A stretch of 31,914 nt of DNA, from positions 1-31,914 of IMG/VR virus record IMGVR_UViG_3300038441_000845; one strand, given 5' to 3'. Source of the stretch: a virus. This document shows, piece by piece, positions 13,554 to 23,355 of this stretch. Each line of letters opens with the position of its first letter. Positions within the stretch are counted from its first letter, which is position 1. The notes under the pieces were generated by a model that saw nothing but the letters and a program-made list of their open reading frames with translations, was not told the origin of the DNA and ran no database searches. The position numbers were made by a program, and so were the translations under genes.

Positions 13554-13830
13554 CTGTAACAGTGTTTTCCTCGACAAAGTTAAAGAGCACATCAAGGCAA
13601 AGGCGCCCAATGGCTCTGAGCGCCTTGATATTTCAATGCCGCAAGTGCGGTTTGCTTTTACGGACAAAGGTTTGAAAGACTTGGTTGTTATGGACGTAAA
13701 GGGTGAATACTTCACGCCAAAGAAAGCAGGCGGTTTCAAGCGCGTTAAAGTTGACACTTTCATTTCTGCAAACTATTGCCCGTTCTGCGGCGTATCGCTT
13801 AAGGATGCTGACAATGCAACCAACCTTTAA
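13537..13830 (+). CDS. Small Cys-rich, probable zinc-binding protein (97 aa)
   Basis: ATG 13537 (GACAATG context) is chosen because upstream in-frame starts would give an implausible Cys/Thr/Ser-rich leader that is only the shadow of the previous gene. The product starts MSKQCNCNSVFLDKVKEHI and ends near NYCPFCGVSLKDA. The N-terminal CNC and C-terminal CPFCG could together bind one zinc. The middle (DISMPQVRFAFTDKGLKDLV) has beta character. I have seen similar small phage proteins with a C-terminal CPFCG knuckle, without known function. It overlaps both neighbours, so it is part of the same operon. Confidence 0.66.
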   Translation: MSKQCNCNSVFLDKVKEHIKAKAPNGSERLDISMPQVRFAFTDKGLKDLVVMDVKGEYFTPKKAGGFKRVKVDTFISANYCPFCGVSLKDADNATNL

Positions 13831-14653
13831 ATCCATGCGCCGTGACGGTGCTATCAAACGCGGTGAAGCCAACGCGGTGCGCCTTGAGGACATCCACGAG
13901 GAACCCGGCTTTAACGAGCTGGCGCGTGACTATGATGCTGACGACGAACAGGCCATTGCCGAGCTTGCCGCGTTCATCAAAGCGGGTGGCATCTACCCGG
14001 CGCTTGAAGTGCGCCCGCGTGCTGAGGGTGGTGTCTGGCTGGTTGACGGTCACTTGCGTTCTCGGGCGCTGCGGCTGCTTGATGCTGCTGGCGACCTGCC
14101 GCGCACGCCGAACAAAGAAGACCCGAAAGTGCTTGAGGCTTGGGTGAATGTTACGCCGTTCGTTGGCAATGACGCTGAGCGCATCTTGCGGCTAGATACC
14201 AGCTCGCAACGCAAAGACCCTGGTGACCTGGCGCGCGGCCGCATCTACTCGGCTCTGCTGGCGCACAACTGGACACCTCAACAGATAGCCACGCGCACAG
14301 GCAAGCCGCTTGCAACCATTCAACGCATCCTGACCCTGGCCAGCGGCAACACTGACGTGCACGAAATGGTCAAGGCTGGTGAGGTCAAACCAACCATCGC
14401 AGCGCAGGCGGTGAAGACTCACGGCGACAAGGCCGGGGCGGTGCTCGGTGCCGCTCTTGTTGAGGCCAAGGCGATTGGCAAGACCCGCGTGACCAACGCC
14501 GTGCTCAAACCCAAGCGCATCCCTGAGAGCCTGGTAGAGCGGTTGATTGCAAGCCTGCGCGTGTGCAGTGATACGCACGAGCCTTTGCAAGAAGCGTTGG
14601 ACGCGGCACGTGCGCTACTCAAAGAGATTGAAGAGGTGCGCGGCAATGGCTGA
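13814..14653 (+). CDS. ParB-like nuclease/partition-fold protein with HTH domain
   Basis: ATG 13814 has AAGGA 7 bases upstream and lies inside the end of the previous gene. The 279-residue product contains a ParB N-terminal fold: NAVRLEDIHEEPGFNELARD, an ELAAFIKAGGIYPALEVRP strand, then VWLVDGHLRSRAL, the DGH-x-R-x3-L signature of the ParB/sulfiredoxin superfamily. An HTH follows (WTPQQIATRTGKPLATIQRI), as in KorB/ParB proteins, and then helical C-terminal sequence. In ParB, this fold binds and hydrolyses CTP or acts as a nuclease; in phages it is also found in transcription regulators. No ParA-type ATPase gene is visible, so partition is not supported. A regulatory or DNA-modifying role is more likely here. 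Confidence 0.78.
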   Translation: MQPTFKSMRRDGAIKRGEANAVRLEDIHEEPGFNELARDYDADDEQAIAELAAFIKAGGIYPALEVRPRAEGGVWLVDGHLRSRALRLLDAAGDLPRTPNKEDPKVLEAWVNVTPFVGNDAERILRLDTSSQRKDPGDLARGRIYSALLAHNWTPQQIATRTGKPLATIQRILTLASGNTDVHEMVKAGEVKPTIAAQAVKTHGDKAGAVLGAALVEAKAIGKTRVTNAVLKPKRIPESLVERLIASLRVCSDTHEPLQEALDAARALLKEIEEVRGNG

Positions 14654-17950: not shown

Positions 17951-18309
17951 GCATTGGAACAATCAAACCCCTCGTAACCGCTGATGATGTGCAGGCGCTG
18001 CCGAACGCCGAGCTGCAGCTTGTAGCACGCGCAGCCCTGGCCGCTGGTTACACTGTGGACGTTCGCCACATTCGCTATGAGTATATGGTGTTCGCGAACG
18101 GCAAGCACTTTCACCCGCTCACCAACTGGATGCAGTGCGTGCGCCTGGTGGTTGATACTGACCAAACATTCAGCATTGACGGGCGTATCTCGCTAAAGGT
18201 TGGCGACTCGCAAGAGCATGAGGTACGCAAGCCAACCACCGATGCCGAGTATTACAGCCAGATGTGTGAAGCCGTGGTAACCAACACGGCTAAGGGGTTC
18301 CCGGTTTGA
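17947..18309 (+). CDS. DUF2591-like small phage protein (120 aa)
   Basis: ATG 17947 shares ATGA with the preceding stop. The product has a helical start, ELQLVARAALAAGYTVDVRH, then the segment FANGKHFHPLTNWMQCVRL followed by a conserved-looking VVDTDQTF strand. The F-x-PLTN(W/D)-x2-C-x-RL pattern resembles the DUF2591 family found in many phages and prophages, whose function is unknown. The C-terminus is a short helix ending in Pro-Val. It is the last gene before three RMF-like mini-proteins. Confidence 0.62.
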   Translation: MSIGTIKPLVTADDVQALPNAELQLVARAALAAGYTVDVRHIRYEYMVFANGKHFHPLTNWMQCVRLVVDTDQTFSIDGRISLKVGDSQEHEVRKPTTDAEYYSQMCEAVVTNTAKGFPV

Positions 18310-19074: not shown

Positions 19075-19172
19075 CAAGTTCGAATCAATCAGTAAAAAGC
19101 CCGTAGCAATCTGGGCAGGGGTACTGACCCCTGTGAGCTTGGCAGCCATCCAGATTGCTACGGGCTTTTTCG
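19075..19172 (+). ncRNA. Structured leader or small RNA with 21-bp hairpin
   Basis: AAAAAGCCCGTAGCAATCTG plus one G (19094-19114) is the exact reverse complement of 19150-19170, a 21-bp perfect stem ending in TTTTT. Inside it is a second hairpin: CAGGGGT-ACTG-ACCCCTG (19116-19133), followed by a 15-base strand. The 3' T run makes the whole a terminator or attenuator. With the promoter at 19040 the product would be an RNA of about 97 bases, ending 20 bases before the primase start. It could be a regulatory RNA, an attenuator for the primase-helicase gene, or part of the origin. The exact symmetry also gives open reading frames on both strands, which I do not count as genes. Confidence 0.7.
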
Positions 19173-19190
19173 CATATAAGGCAAATGACA

Positions 19191-21812
19191 ATGCTTGCAA
19201 CAGCTTTGGCGGGAATGACCGCCGTAAATCAATGGTTCGTGTGGCGCCTGTCACCGGACCCTAAAAAGCCGGGGAAATACCAAAAGGTGCCGGTGCACCC
19301 TGATGGTCGAATTGAGTTTGATGAACAAGGAAAGCTCAAGGGTATTGACGCCCAAAAGCCGTACGCGTGGACATCATACGAGGTGGCCACGGCTCAACTT
19401 GCTGTGCATATGGGGAGGCTTGACGGTTATGTCTACACGCTCGGTTTTATGGTTACTGCTGGTTGTGGCTACTGGTTCCTTGATGTTGACAGTTGTGTTG
19501 ACTCTGCTGGTGCTCTTTCACCCTGGGCAGCCTGGTTCTACCAAAACCTGCCCGGGGCGTTTTTTGAGTACAGCTCATCCGGCAAGGGCATTCACCTCAT
19601 CGGCCGTGGTTGCCCTGCAGCCGGTCACCGCACCCGACCAACGCAAGAATGGGTAGCCGCCAACCCTGGCGTTGACCTTGAGTTCTATACAGGCGGTCGG
19701 GGTATCGCGTTCGGGTTGAATGGGCAGGCTTGGGGGTCTGCTGATACACACCTATTGGGTCAAACCGAGTACATCGTTGAGCACATCTTTAAGCGTGAGC
19801 AGGGTGTTGCGCTGGCGGTGGGTGACGGACCTCGTGCGGATTGGCGCGGACCTGAGAGCGATGACGAACTGATCAGGCGCGCTCTGCAGTCGCGCAGTGC
19901 CGGTGCCATGTTTGGCGGAAAGGCAACGTTTGCTGACCTGTGGACCTGCAACCTACCGGTGCTGGCTGAGCACTACCCTGACCCCGGCCGCTCAGATGAC
20001 TTGCCGTACGATGGCACCGGGGTTGATTTCGCCCTGGCGTCCCACCTGGCGTTCTGGACGGGCTGCGATGCCGAGCGCATGACGCGGCTTATGTGGCGCT
20101 CAGGGTTGGTGCGCGATAAGTGGACGTCGCACCACACGTACCTATCTGAGCTGACAGTGCTCAACGCCTGCCGCCAGACCCGCAACGTCTGCCAGGACAA
20201 GGAGACAGTAGCCAAGCTTGATGCCTCGGTAACCCTTGAGGCTGGCATGAGCAGGCAGCAATACTTTGACTTGATAATGGCGTGCAACGATGACGCCGAG
20301 CTGCGCAACGATGTGCTGCCGCAGATATCAGGTGACCGTGCGATTGCCGCGCTTGACCGGGATTGGCTGGCCGCTGCAGTAAAGAAGCGCATGAGTGAAT
20401 GGGGGTTCCCGGTTGGCATCAACGACTGCAAGGCTATGGTGCGCCTGCAGGCGGTTGAGGATGAGGACGGCGGGGTTATTCCTGAGTGGGCCAACCGCCA
20501 CGTGTACGTCAAAGCTAACGACTGCTTCTTTAATCTGATGAGCGCCGAAATGATGACGCGCACGTCGTTCAATGCGGACTTTGAGCGCATGATGCCTCAG
20601 AAGCCCAACGGCGACCGTGAGGATGCAGCCAAGTGGTGCTTGCAGCGCTGGAACATGAGCACCGTGGCCAACTACATGTACCTGCCTGGACGTGACCCAA
20701 TTTTCAATCATGAGGGTCGCTGGTACGCAAACCTGTACAGCCCGAGCAGCGTGCCCGAAATCGCCCTTGGTTACACACAGGGTGGGGTTGATGCCATCCA
20801 AGCGTTCTTGCGCCACCTGCAGGCGCTGTGCGGCAACCGGACCGAGGTTTATCTAAACCTGCTTGACTGGATGGCCTGGTGTGCGCAGAACCCTGGCAAG
20901 AAGTGCCGCTATGCACCAATCATCAAGGGTATGCCCGGTGATGGTAAGTCGATGATCATCAATATCATGCAGGCCGTGATGGGCTTTGCGAACGCCACCA
21001 GTGTTGGCGCCAAACTCGTGTGCTCAGATTTCGGTGACTGGCAAGAGGGTTCGTGTGTCACCGCGTTTGAGGAACTGATGATTACCGGTGCCAAGCGCTA
21101 TGCCGTGGCCAACGCCATCAAGGAGCCCATCACCAACAACACGCTCAAGATTAACCGCAAGGGTCAGCCGGCCGGTGCGTCAATCATTAACGTCACTAAC
21201 TACATCGCCTTCACAAACTTTGTGGACGCGGTGCCGCTTGAAGACAATGACCGCCGTTGGTGGGTGATCTTTTCCCCGTTCGATAGCCTGCACAGCCTGG
21301 CAGCAGCGCTGAGCCTTACAGAAGACGGCTTGACCAAACACTACGATTTCATCTTTGACAGTCTGCAGGGTGCGCAGCGTGGCGAGTGGCGCAAGTTCTT
21401 CCTTGAGTATCAGGTGAGCGAGAATTTCAAACCGAACGCCAAAGCACCACACACCAGTGAGAAGGCTGAAATGCAAGCGGGCGGGGAAGACGCTCACGAG
21501 GCCGTGGCGCGTCAATGTATCGAAAGTGGGGCCATCGGTGTAGGCCAGTTCGTTTTAAGCTCCAGCGCGCTAGCAGCGGCTATGAGGACCATATGCGTGC
21601 AGGATGGGATGGACATCCCAAAAACTTCTGCAGTTAGCCACATGCTCACCCGTCTCGGGTTCTCGCCAAAGGGTGTGATCAAGTGGGACGGCAAAGCGCA
21701 CCGTGTGTGGTGGAAGCGTGGCAAGGTGGCGAACGATGACAACGAGACTCTGCGGTCCTTGCTTGAACTCACGAAAATTCAGCACATGGCGCAGCTCACA
21801 GCAACTGGTTAA
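19191..21812 (+). CDS. Primase/polymerase-SF3 helicase replication protein
   Basis: The start is the second ATG of ATGACAATG; AAGG (19178-19181) is 9 bases away. The 873-residue protein has an N-terminal primase-polymerase (AEP-type) domain: LDVDSC with D98 and D100, SSSGKGIHLIG with H135, and an acidic/strand motif DLEFYTGGRGIAFG. The middle is a linker of helical domains. The C-terminal helicase domain carries KGMPGDGKS (Walker A, K586), AFEELM (Walker B near 626-629) and the sensor NYIAFTN, as in SF3/D5-type helicases. This matches the primase-helicase style seen in NrS-1-like and P4-like replication proteins, which recognise repeats at their own origin and open it. The iteron array follows directly. 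Confidence 0.9.
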   Translation: MLATALAGMTAVNQWFVWRLSPDPKKPGKYQKVPVHPDGRIEFDEQGKLKGIDAQKPYAWTSYEVATAQLAVHMGRLDGYVYTLGFMVTAGCGYWFLDVDSCVDSAGALSPWAAWFYQNLPGAFFEYSSSGKGIHLIGRGCPAAGHRTRPTQEWVAANPGVDLEFYTGGRGIAFGLNGQAWGSADTHLLGQTEYIVEHIFKREQGVALAVGDGPRADWRGPESDDELIRRALQSRSAGAMFGGKATFADLWTCNLPVLAEHYPDPGRSDDLPYDGTGVDFALASHLAFWTGCDAERMTRLMWRSGLVRDKWTSHHTYLSELTVLNACRQTRNVCQDKETVAKLDASVTLEAGMSRQQYFDLIMACNDDAELRNDVLPQISGDRAIAALDRDWLAAAVKKRMSEWGFPVGINDCKAMVRLQAVEDEDGGVIPEWANRHVYVKANDCFFNLMSAEMMTRTSFNADFERMMPQKPNGDREDAAKWCLQRWNMSTVANYMYLPGRDPIFNHEGRWYANLYSPSSVPEIALGYTQGGVDAIQAFLRHLQALCGNRTEVYLNLLDWMAWCAQNPGKKCRYAPIIKGMPGDGKSMIINIMQAVMGFANATSVGAKLVCSDFGDWQEGSCVTAFEELMITGAKRYAVANAIKEPITNNTLKINRKGQPAGASIINVTNYIAFTNFVDAVPLEDNDRRWWVIFSPFDSLHSLAAALSLTEDGLTKHYDFIFDSLQGAQRGEWRKFFLEYQVSENFKPNAKAPHTSEKAEMQAGGEDAHEAVARQCIESGAIGVGQFVLSSSALAAAMRTICVQDGMDIPKTSAVSHMLTRLGFSPKGVIKWDGKAHRVWWKRGKVANDDNETLRSLLELTKIQHMAQLTATG

Positions 21813-22126
21813 AATTTGATCAGGTTACGAGGTTACAAGGCTGTTTGAGCTTGTAACCTCACTTGTAACCCTCTGAGAGCCCCGGTTTTACTGGATTTCT
21901 ATCTCTAAAGGTTACAAGTTACAAGATAATTAAAAATCTAGCTGTATGTGAGTTGATAGGTATGTGTATAGGTGGTCATCATGAGTCATGTCGTATGTTC
22001 CGTTTTTATGTGTATTTAAATTTTTTCCACTTGTAACCCGTAACCTTTTCTCTGCAGGCCACGGTTTATAAGGGCTGTAGAGGTTACGAGCTTGTAACCC
22101 TAACTTGTAACCTTTTGGGTGAATTT
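21813..22126. repeat. Iteron array in AT-rich noncoding DNA: candidate replication origin
   Basis: About ten copies of GGTTAC(A/G)AG or its complement CTTGTAACC lie in 290 bases. Plus orientation: 21823, 21831, 21910, 22082, and AGTTACAAG at 21917. Reverse orientation: 21850, 21862, 22030, 22091, 22104, and a partial copy near 22038. Several are in pairs, and GGTTACGAG-CTTGTAACC (22082-22099) abut as a palindrome. Between the two groups lies an AT-rich stretch (about 21926-22028), with runs such as TTTAAATTTTTT. Iterons flanking an AT-rich unwinding region, directly after a primase-helicase gene, is the layout of plasmid and P4-type origins. Other readings are repressor operators or a centromere-like site. 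Confidence 0.8.
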
Positions 22127-22885
22127 ATGAAAAAGAAGAATTTGAGCAAGCTAGAGGCTCTCTTTGTCAAAAAACTCGTTGAGTGTGGCAAACCTGCTGA
22201 TGCGTACCGCGCAGCTTTCAGTTGTGCAGGGCTCTCAGATTTACAGATTTCGTCACGTGCTGGGACTGTGAAGGCTCGCAAGCACGTAAAAGCTGCGCTT
22301 GACGCTGCGAAAAAAACTGTTGAGAAAGAATTGAAATTTGGAATTCAAGACATCGTTGAGATTTGGACGGACATTGCTACCGCTGATCCTAACGAGTTGA
22401 TGAGCAATTTGCGGCGGTGCTGCCGCCACTGCTACGGCCGTGGTCACCATTACCAGTGGAAGGACGAGAACGAATTTGCCTATGCGCTCGGCCAGGCTCT
22501 CAAGGCCAAGGGTAAGCAGACCATCCCGAGCGATGAGGGCGGCTATGGGTTCAACTTCACGTTTCGGCCGCACCCTGAGTGCACCGAGTGCAAAGGTGAG
22601 GGCCACCTTGATACGTTCTTTGCTGACACCCGGAAATTGAGCAGGGCAGGGCGCCGGCTGTACGCTGGTGTCAAGCAGACCGCTCAGGGCATGCAGGTTA
22701 TGACGCGCGACCAAGATGCAGCGCTTGCCAACCTGGCCAAGTTCTTTGGAATGATGCCTGACAAATTGCAGGTTGCAGGGGCTGACGGTGGACCGTTATT
22801 AAGTGCTACTATGCCACTGCCCACCGACCCGGTGGAAGCTGCGAACCTTTACGCGCAGTTCATTAAAAGCAACGCAAGGGGATGA
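22127..22885 (+). CDS. terS: Terminase small subunit with zinc-finger insertion
   Basis: ATG 22127 has GGGTGA six bases upstream; the in-frame TTG at 22115 is less likely. The 252-residue product begins with the terminase_2-type HTH region: LSKLEALFVKKLVECGKPAD, AYRAAFSCAG and a helix to about residue 60. Then comes KFGIQDIVEIWTDIATADP. An inserted region has CRHCYGRGH and CTECKGEGH, two CX2CXGXG motifs of the DnaJ zinc-finger type, with QWKDENEFAYALGQALKAKG between them. The C-terminus ends with the helix VEAANLYAQFIKSNA. The protein would recognise the packaging site and hand DNA to TerL. It directly follows the iteron array, so the repeats could alternatively be its packaging (pac) site. 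Confidence 0.85.
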   Translation: MKKKNLSKLEALFVKKLVECGKPADAYRAAFSCAGLSDLQISSRAGTVKARKHVKAALDAAKKTVEKELKFGIQDIVEIWTDIATADPNELMSNLRRCCRHCYGRGHHYQWKDENEFAYALGQALKAKGKQTIPSDEGGYGFNFTFRPHPECTECKGEGHLDTFFADTRKLSRAGRRLYAGVKQTAQGMQVMTRDQDAALANLAKFFGMMPDKLQVAGADGGPLLSATMPLPTDPVEAANLYAQFIKSNARG

Positions 22886-22887
22886 CA

Positions 22888-23355
22888 ATGCAAAAGTACA
22901 CAGTGAACGAGAACCCGCACTGCCCCGAAGGCACAAGCGACGAAATATCGCAATACCTGCCAGCGGGAACCGTGCTCTATGCGGCTGCGGGCGTTGATGC
23001 TGAGATTGAATCGCTCAAGTTGATGAGCGTGGCAAACGTTCTGTTGGATGCAACGTTGGGTGATGACAGCTTTCAGAGCGCGCAAGCAAAATCTGTCGAT
23101 GAGGTAAACGATAGGCTGAGGGGGTTAGAGGATCTGGTGGCAACATTGGAGGGTGAGCTTGCTGAGGCTAACGCGCAGCTAACAGAGCGCAACCGCGAGT
23201 TTGGCAAAGTGTCGTCTGAGGCTATCACCCTGCGCGATGTGCTGGCCTTGTTGGCGCCTGACCTCAAAGCAATGGCAATCCTGTACGCGCAGAAGGGCGA
23301 CCACCAACGCAGCCAGGCGCTCAACAACATTTGCAAATCTGTTGGGGTGGTGTGA
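22888..23355 (+). CDS. Coiled-coil hypothetical protein (155 aa)
   Basis: ATG 22888 is chosen because AAGGGG (22876-22881) is 6 bases upstream; the first ATG of the ATGACAATG (22882) would leave no gap. Residues 1-45 are a small folded start (CPEGTSDEISQYLPAGTVLY), and residues 70-110 form a long coiled coil (LRGLEDLVATLEGELAEANA). The end (AILYAQKGDHQRSQALNNIC) is helical. No family is recognised. It lies between the two terminase genes and is coupled on both sides (ATGA with terS, TGATG with the next gene). Confidence 0.64.
   Translation: MQKYTVNENPHCPEGTSDEISQYLPAGTVLYAAAGVDAEIESLKLMSVANVLLDATLGDDSFQSAQAKSVDEVNDRLRGLEDLVATLEGELAEANAQLTERNREFGKVSSEAITLRDVLALLAPDLKAMAILYAQKGDHQRSQALNNICKSVGVV

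Follow-up and report, generated by a model that had tools for sequence, protein, structure and literature searches.

In the virus sequence analysed here (the window, 31,914 nucleotides of an incomplete linear virus record), a gap packed with short repeats separates the gene for a primase-polymerase/helicase from terS, and it raises the question of what the repeats do and which protein reads them. The gap is bounded by the primase stop (21812) and the terS ATG (22127), with an in-frame TTG at 22115 as a possible terS start, and its GC content is 0.39 compared with 0.56 for the window. The sequence-only reading had described about ten repeats, in both orientations, around an AT-rich core after the primase-helicase gene; a count of 11 units around a core of 31% GC confirms this description. 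We find that the array is very probably a replication origin, with the protein encoded directly upstream as its cognate initiator, acting via a C-terminal winged helix.

Units of the form GGTTAC(A/G)AG occupy 21823-22112, nine of the 11 exact and two with one mismatch. Five are in forward orientation (starting at 21823, 21831, 21910, 21917, and 22082) and six in reverse (21850, 21862, 22030, 22037, 22091, and 22104). From the left, two forward units (GGTTACGAG at 21823-21831 and, 8 bp further on, GGTTACAAG at 21831-21839) are followed by two reverse units 12 bp apart (21850-21858 and 21862-21870, both CTTGTAACC on the plus strand) and by an inner left pair of forward units 7 bp apart (GGTTACAAG at 21910-21918 and AGTTACAAG at 21917-21925). 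Beyond a 104-bp core lies an inner right pair of reverse units, also 7 bp apart (CTTGTAACC at 22030-22038 and CCCGTAACC at 22037-22045, as read on the plus strand), then a forward unit (GGTTACGAG at 22082-22090) abutting a reverse unit at 22091-22099, with which it forms an 18-bp near-palindrome, and one further reverse unit at 22104-22112. The densest 9-mer family in 21813-22126 comprises 10 non-overlapping copies; 500 dinucleotide shuffles gave at most four, and the other 314-bp stretches of the window, apart from those overlapping the array, hold no more than five copies of their best family. Outside the array, the window contains a single exact GGTTACRAG, at 17971.

The core between the converging inner pairs (21926-22029, GC 0.31) is a candidate unwinding region. 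In alignments with close relatives it retains a non-repeat block, GTATAGGTGGTCATCAT (21966-21982, plus strand), which differs at two or three positions in L003 and is missing from L038. This block includes GTGG at 21972-21975, a motif at which the NrS-1 primase starts primers (PMC8718748), and the GTGG of the core is perhaps a priming start. GTGG is present in the core of 22 of 33 loci compared with 10.5 expected, an enrichment that is suggestive at most, because the loci are related and a 4-mer proves little. A second, non-iteron repeat is present as copy A (CTCTGAGAGCCCCGGTTT, 21871-21888), which is kept in close relatives, and copy B (CTCTGCAGGCCACGGTTT, 22050-22067), 78% identical to it, of which CCACGG or CCCCGG followed by TTTATAAGGG is kept in most close relatives. 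This repeat (..GAGAGCCCCGGTTT or ..GCAGGCCACGGTTT, then TATAAGGG in relatives) sits in both reverse-forward spacers and is possibly a host-factor site. No Rfam match was found in 21000-23000, and no GC-skew switch was seen at the array or mid-genome in Pseudomonas phage Psp6 and phage Silvanus, so that GC skew lends an origin here no support. A stem-loop origin as in pRN1 was rejected, since the window core contains no stable hairpin and folds no better than shuffles; a hairpin with a z of -3.2 is present in one marine relative (L084) and in none of the others.

The gene upstream of the array (19155-21812, plus strand) encodes 885 amino acids comprising an archaeo-eukaryotic primase (AEP) domain, an NrS-1-type helix-bundle domain (HBD), an SF3/DUF5906 helicase, and the C-terminal winged helix. 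It starts at TTG 19155 or ATG 19191; residue numbers given here count from the TTG and are 12 lower if the ATG is used. Pfam matches (NrS1-1_pol-like_HBD, 9e-17; DUF5906, 3.4e-13), the PHROG annotation (DNA primase), and the best PDB sequence matches (NrS-1 primase chains) agree on the protein family. For the modelled helicase and winged helix together, the best fold match is the C-terminal region of NrS-1, followed by African swine fever virus PrimPol, poxvirus D5/E5, the SaPI5 primase-helicase, and PriRep1. The winged-helix region (residues 795-856, 21537-21722, plus strand; AlphaFold pLDDT 89-91) is the proposed reader of the repeats. Its predicted recognition helix (residues 824-833, 21624-21653) has T824 as its N-cap in the AlphaFold model, and its predicted wing of two strands (residues 836-854, 21660-21716) includes residues 843-850. 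Taken by itself, the winged helix has Orc1/Cdc6 bound to origin DNA as its best Foldseek match (E 2.8e-3). The fold scores for this domain are middling (Z about 7), and therefore its relatives cannot be named from the fold alone; the matches listed for it did not include the structure of P4's own domain.

The sequence-only reading had pointed to related phages as a place to look for the same repeat array, and it is indeed found in all ten near relatives retrieved with the primase (80% to 88% identity). Each has it in the interval after the primase stop and before the following gene; unit positions are nearly unchanged, and the non-repeat blocks are shared. A profile search and the inclusion of named phages brought the total to 76 loci. 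An array could be assigned right after the primase gene in 59 of these, down to about 30% identity, and in the other 17 none was assigned. Converging inner pairs with a core of 62 to 112 bp were located automatically in 33 representative loci. While the layout is conserved, the repeat word differs by lineage, and all copies within one phage switch together. Read by eye off the inner pair, in knowledge of the hypothesis, the word is GGTTACAAG in the window, L002, L003, and L011, GGTTACAGG in L008, GGTAACAGG in L007 and L009, GGTCCCAAG in L004, L006, and L010, and GGTCACAAG in L005; further words across the 76 loci include GGTTCGAAG, GGATCGAGG, GGTTCCAAG, AGATCCAAG, GCTCTCAGG, and CCATACAAG. The gene that comes after the array is terS in the window group, an endolysin gene in Silvanus, a small ORF and then an HNH gene in Psp6, and a late activator gene in PCA1. 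Because this next gene varies between phages, the array belongs with the primase. Four of the phages (L014, L016, L017, and L018; Scuro, SppYZU01, B2, and PEi21) have primases without the conserved KWxG wing and no comparable array after the gene. Many distant relatives (L013, L015, and L044-L073 among others) have a conserved TAAGTTGTTGATT block that lies ahead of the inner pair, between it and the outer units, and is missing from the window group.

All copies of the word change in concert, and therefore a trans-acting reader must change alongside them. To identify the protein residues that track the word, its distance between phages was compared with the divergence of the proteins encoded at the locus. 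Among the ten near relatives, word distance follows the divergence of primase residues 822-851 (rho 0.84, a value reached in none of 20,000 permutations), and the primase body and TerS both trend weakly in the wrong direction. Across 808 sliding 30-residue windows, the best value was 0.91 at residues 831-860, compared with 0.60 for the best window outside the winged helix and 0.19 for the best in TerS.

Individual columns (about 689) were ranked in 46 non-redundant primases, with overall distance controlled for. The top columns are A848 for word letter 3 and R850 for letters 5 and 6, both in the predicted wing, and T824 for letter 8 (0.47 compared with 0.20 for the next column). K843, also in the wing, is the top column for letter 2; since letters 1, 2, 7, and 9 rarely vary, this assignment comes from two phages only (L038 and L042, both with K843 changed to W), and the choice of register for these two affects it. 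Other columns lead for letters 1, 4, 7, and 9 and are harder to interpret. In an independent-pairs test, with the winged helix left out of the tree, A or G at letter 8 varied with T or another residue at position 824 in the same direction in seven to eight pairs and never in the opposite one (p 0.008 to 0.016), and letter 3 agreed with residue 848 in five of five pairs. Exceptions to the letter rules are L007 and L009, which have T824 but ..CAGG, and L008, which has T at residue 826 but GGTTAC. The covariation signal is concentrated in single top-ranked residues; mean association for the whole winged helix relative to the rest is weak (p 0.07), and for the recognition residues p is 0.014. Locus L059 has the helix of one class, the wing of another, and a word to match, and looks like a natural chimera. 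The HBD was also considered as the reader of the array and rejected, with a mean association of -0.01.

Two features are looked for in an iteron origin: near-identical short repeats beside an AT-rich stretch, and an adjacent initiator matched to the repeat word. The gap has the repeats and the stretch, and covariation of the word with winged-helix residues ties it to the protein encoded next door. The conserved array and this covariation support the main proposal of the sequence-only reading, namely an iteron origin of the P4 kind to which the adjacent primase-helicase binds.

The position of the array also invites other explanations. The terminase small subunit (22115-22885, plus strand; Pfam Terminase_2, 1e-7) is encoded right after it, and small terminases can bind repeats near their own gene, so that the array could be a packaging (pac) site read by TerS, as the sequence-only reading had offered as an alternative. 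The comparison of phages contradicts this, making a pac site highly improbable: TerS identity does not follow the word (rho +0.23, with no TerS window above the 0.19 given above), phages with different words share TerS of up to 93% identity, and the array keeps with the primase in loci where terS lies elsewhere. The variety of downstream genes, from terS to endolysin, HNH, and late activator genes, likewise argues against packaging. The same setting between an early gene and terS, with late activator (PCA1) or lysis (Silvanus) genes after the array in other phages, would suit an operator array, through which the primase-helicase or another regulator controls terS and the late genes, or the primase gene itself. 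Initiators often also autoregulate. We consider this quite improbable, given that the gene after the array varies and that eleven sites in a fixed layout around a 104-bp AT core are more than an operator needs. Nor is there a convincing promoter near the array, where matches are close to chance (one weak promoter-like match and two terminator-like ones, compared with an expected 0.7 for either kind). A pure operator array thus explains less than a replication origin does.

The third alternative comes from satellite phage P4 itself. P4 alpha combines a primase, an SF3 helicase, and a C-terminal winged helix in one protein and binds the repeats at its origin via the winged helix (PMC4234260). 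In the P4 annotation, the array beside the alpha gene is crr, a required cis element, whereas synthesis begins elsewhere, at an ori that carries these repeats too. Because the array next to alpha is crr and not the start site, an accessory role is a live rival here as well: the primase-helicase would bind the array, and first-strand synthesis would start at a second site outside the partial genome. P4 is so arranged: its crr directly follows alpha, its ori lies 2 kb past the opposite end of that gene, and both contain type 1 repeats. The 31.9-kb record of the window is itself incomplete. However, the complete genomes of Psp6 and Silvanus each have the array only once, and the converging pairs of the array enclose its own AT-rich core, so that we regard a purely accessory role as improbable.

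The parallel with P4 drawn in the sequence-only reading holds for the layout, which is the same in crr, and crr too directly follows its initiator gene. Read in the direction of alpha, crr has two reverse units and then two tandem forward units (AAAGGTGAACAGTGTGAACA), and the P4 word GGTGAACAGT is close to GGTTACAGG and GGTAACAAG. Pfam (DUF5906), AlphaFold, and the fold matches likewise predict an initiator with an SF3 helicase and a C-terminal winged helix, as in P4. In contrast, P4 has a Toprim/DnaG-type primase and the window protein AEP with an NrS-1-type HBD; P4 has two separated arrays (ori and crr) and the complete relatives Psp6 and Silvanus have one, the window being incomplete; and the P4 type 1 iteron GGTGAACAG agrees only partially with the window unit GGTTACAAG, in a group where words switch between lineages. 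With a different primase type, a single array, and another word, the window system falls outside the P4 system.

SaPI Rep and SCCmec Cch2 each use a C-terminal domain to bind iterons that lie just beyond the 3' end of the respective gene (PMC7581432). The window resembles both in having short iterons directly downstream of a helicase gene, and SaPI-type Rep-ori also in that iterons flank an AT-rich core (in the window and 33 loci); the structures of SaPI5 and PriRep1 are among the fold matches noted above. Unlike the window system, those elements have primase and polymerase as separate proteins; they also differ from it in host range and in iteron words. The HBD, the helicase, and the C-terminal region place the window protein in the family of the polymerase of deep-sea phage NrS-1, with AEP, HBD, and SF3 helicase in one protein. 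The NrS-1 polymerase forms hexamers (PMC7102993) and primes de novo at TTTGGTTA or GTG(G) (PMC8718748), and the site known for it, the single-strand template word TTTGGTTA, has two copies per genome (PMC8718748, PMC7102993). This word has no match in the window, and unlike that site, the window array tracks the winged helix and not the HBD. The ORF904 protein of the archaeal plasmid pRN1 shares AEP, SF3 helicase, and winged helix with the window protein, and its origin also lies directly 3' of the gene (PMC4234260); that origin is a 100-nt stem-loop without iterons, whereas the window core is without a stable hairpin. The array is thus best read as a P4/SaPI-like iteron-type origin run by an NrS-1-type PrimPol-helicase. 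No earlier description of it was found in the open-licence papers searched.

For such an origin we infer the following mechanism. In double-stranded DNA, the C-terminal winged helix would recognise each 9-bp word, some letters being read by the recognition helix and others by the wing. Protein bound to the converging inner pairs (21910-21925 and 22030-22045), aided by the outer copies, would load two helicase rings facing the core, and these would melt its AT-rich DNA. The N-terminal AEP primase would then begin synthesis bidirectionally on the melted strands, possibly at the conserved GTGG. Tentatively, and with rather less than even confidence, we extend this to NrS-1-type PrimPol-helicase phages at large: they may share one origin architecture, in which the word has repeatedly been rewritten via a readable residue-to-base code in the winged helix, with mutually exclusive replication specificities as the outcome, and in which the same protein binds, melts, and primes without a host primase.

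The start site of NrS-1-type replicases and the loading of their helicase ring on closed DNA were left open in the papers cited here. The tail domain of NrS-1 has been called novel, and the sites known for NrS-1 are ones that most helicases cannot access (PMC7102993). A double-strand iteron array read by the tail domain would be a concrete answer to both questions. The switched words would be naturally occurring variants of specificity, with single bases predicted from single residues (824, 843, 848, and 850), and an array after the primase gene offers a simple way to locate putative origins in many unannotated phages. The array also questions the published proposal of stem-loop assembly for proteins with such a domain make-up, advanced for Bordetella phage BIP-1, in which a stem-loop was invoked and iterons were dismissed (PMC4234260).

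In Bordetella phage BPP-1 (L118, 24000-31000), read on the primase strand, tandem GTTTGCCTC units face GAGGCAAAC units across an AT-rich gap; they lie about 470 to 570 bp beyond the primase stop, with a divergent small ORF in between. These are a possible iteron origin in a phage with a proposed stem-loop origin. Repeats are also present near DR0530-like primase genes. In Burkholderia phage AH2 (L113), 14 copies of AGGTCCGAA come just after the primase stop at 2637, directly following a DR0530-like primase at the genome end. Seven copies of TCCTAGTTG are found near such a gene in AXY1 (L114) and ten of CACTGTCAC in Clavibacter phage 33 (L112), and in Salmonella phage YSD1 (L109) six copies of CTTGTAACC lie beyond a divergent HTH gene. 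Judging from these repeats, the origin type may extend to the Casjensviridae. Elsewhere in the window, a gene at 13703-14653 encodes a ParB-like protein (phrog_1033, with a weak Pfam match to HTH_ParB), which is also annotated in Psp6.
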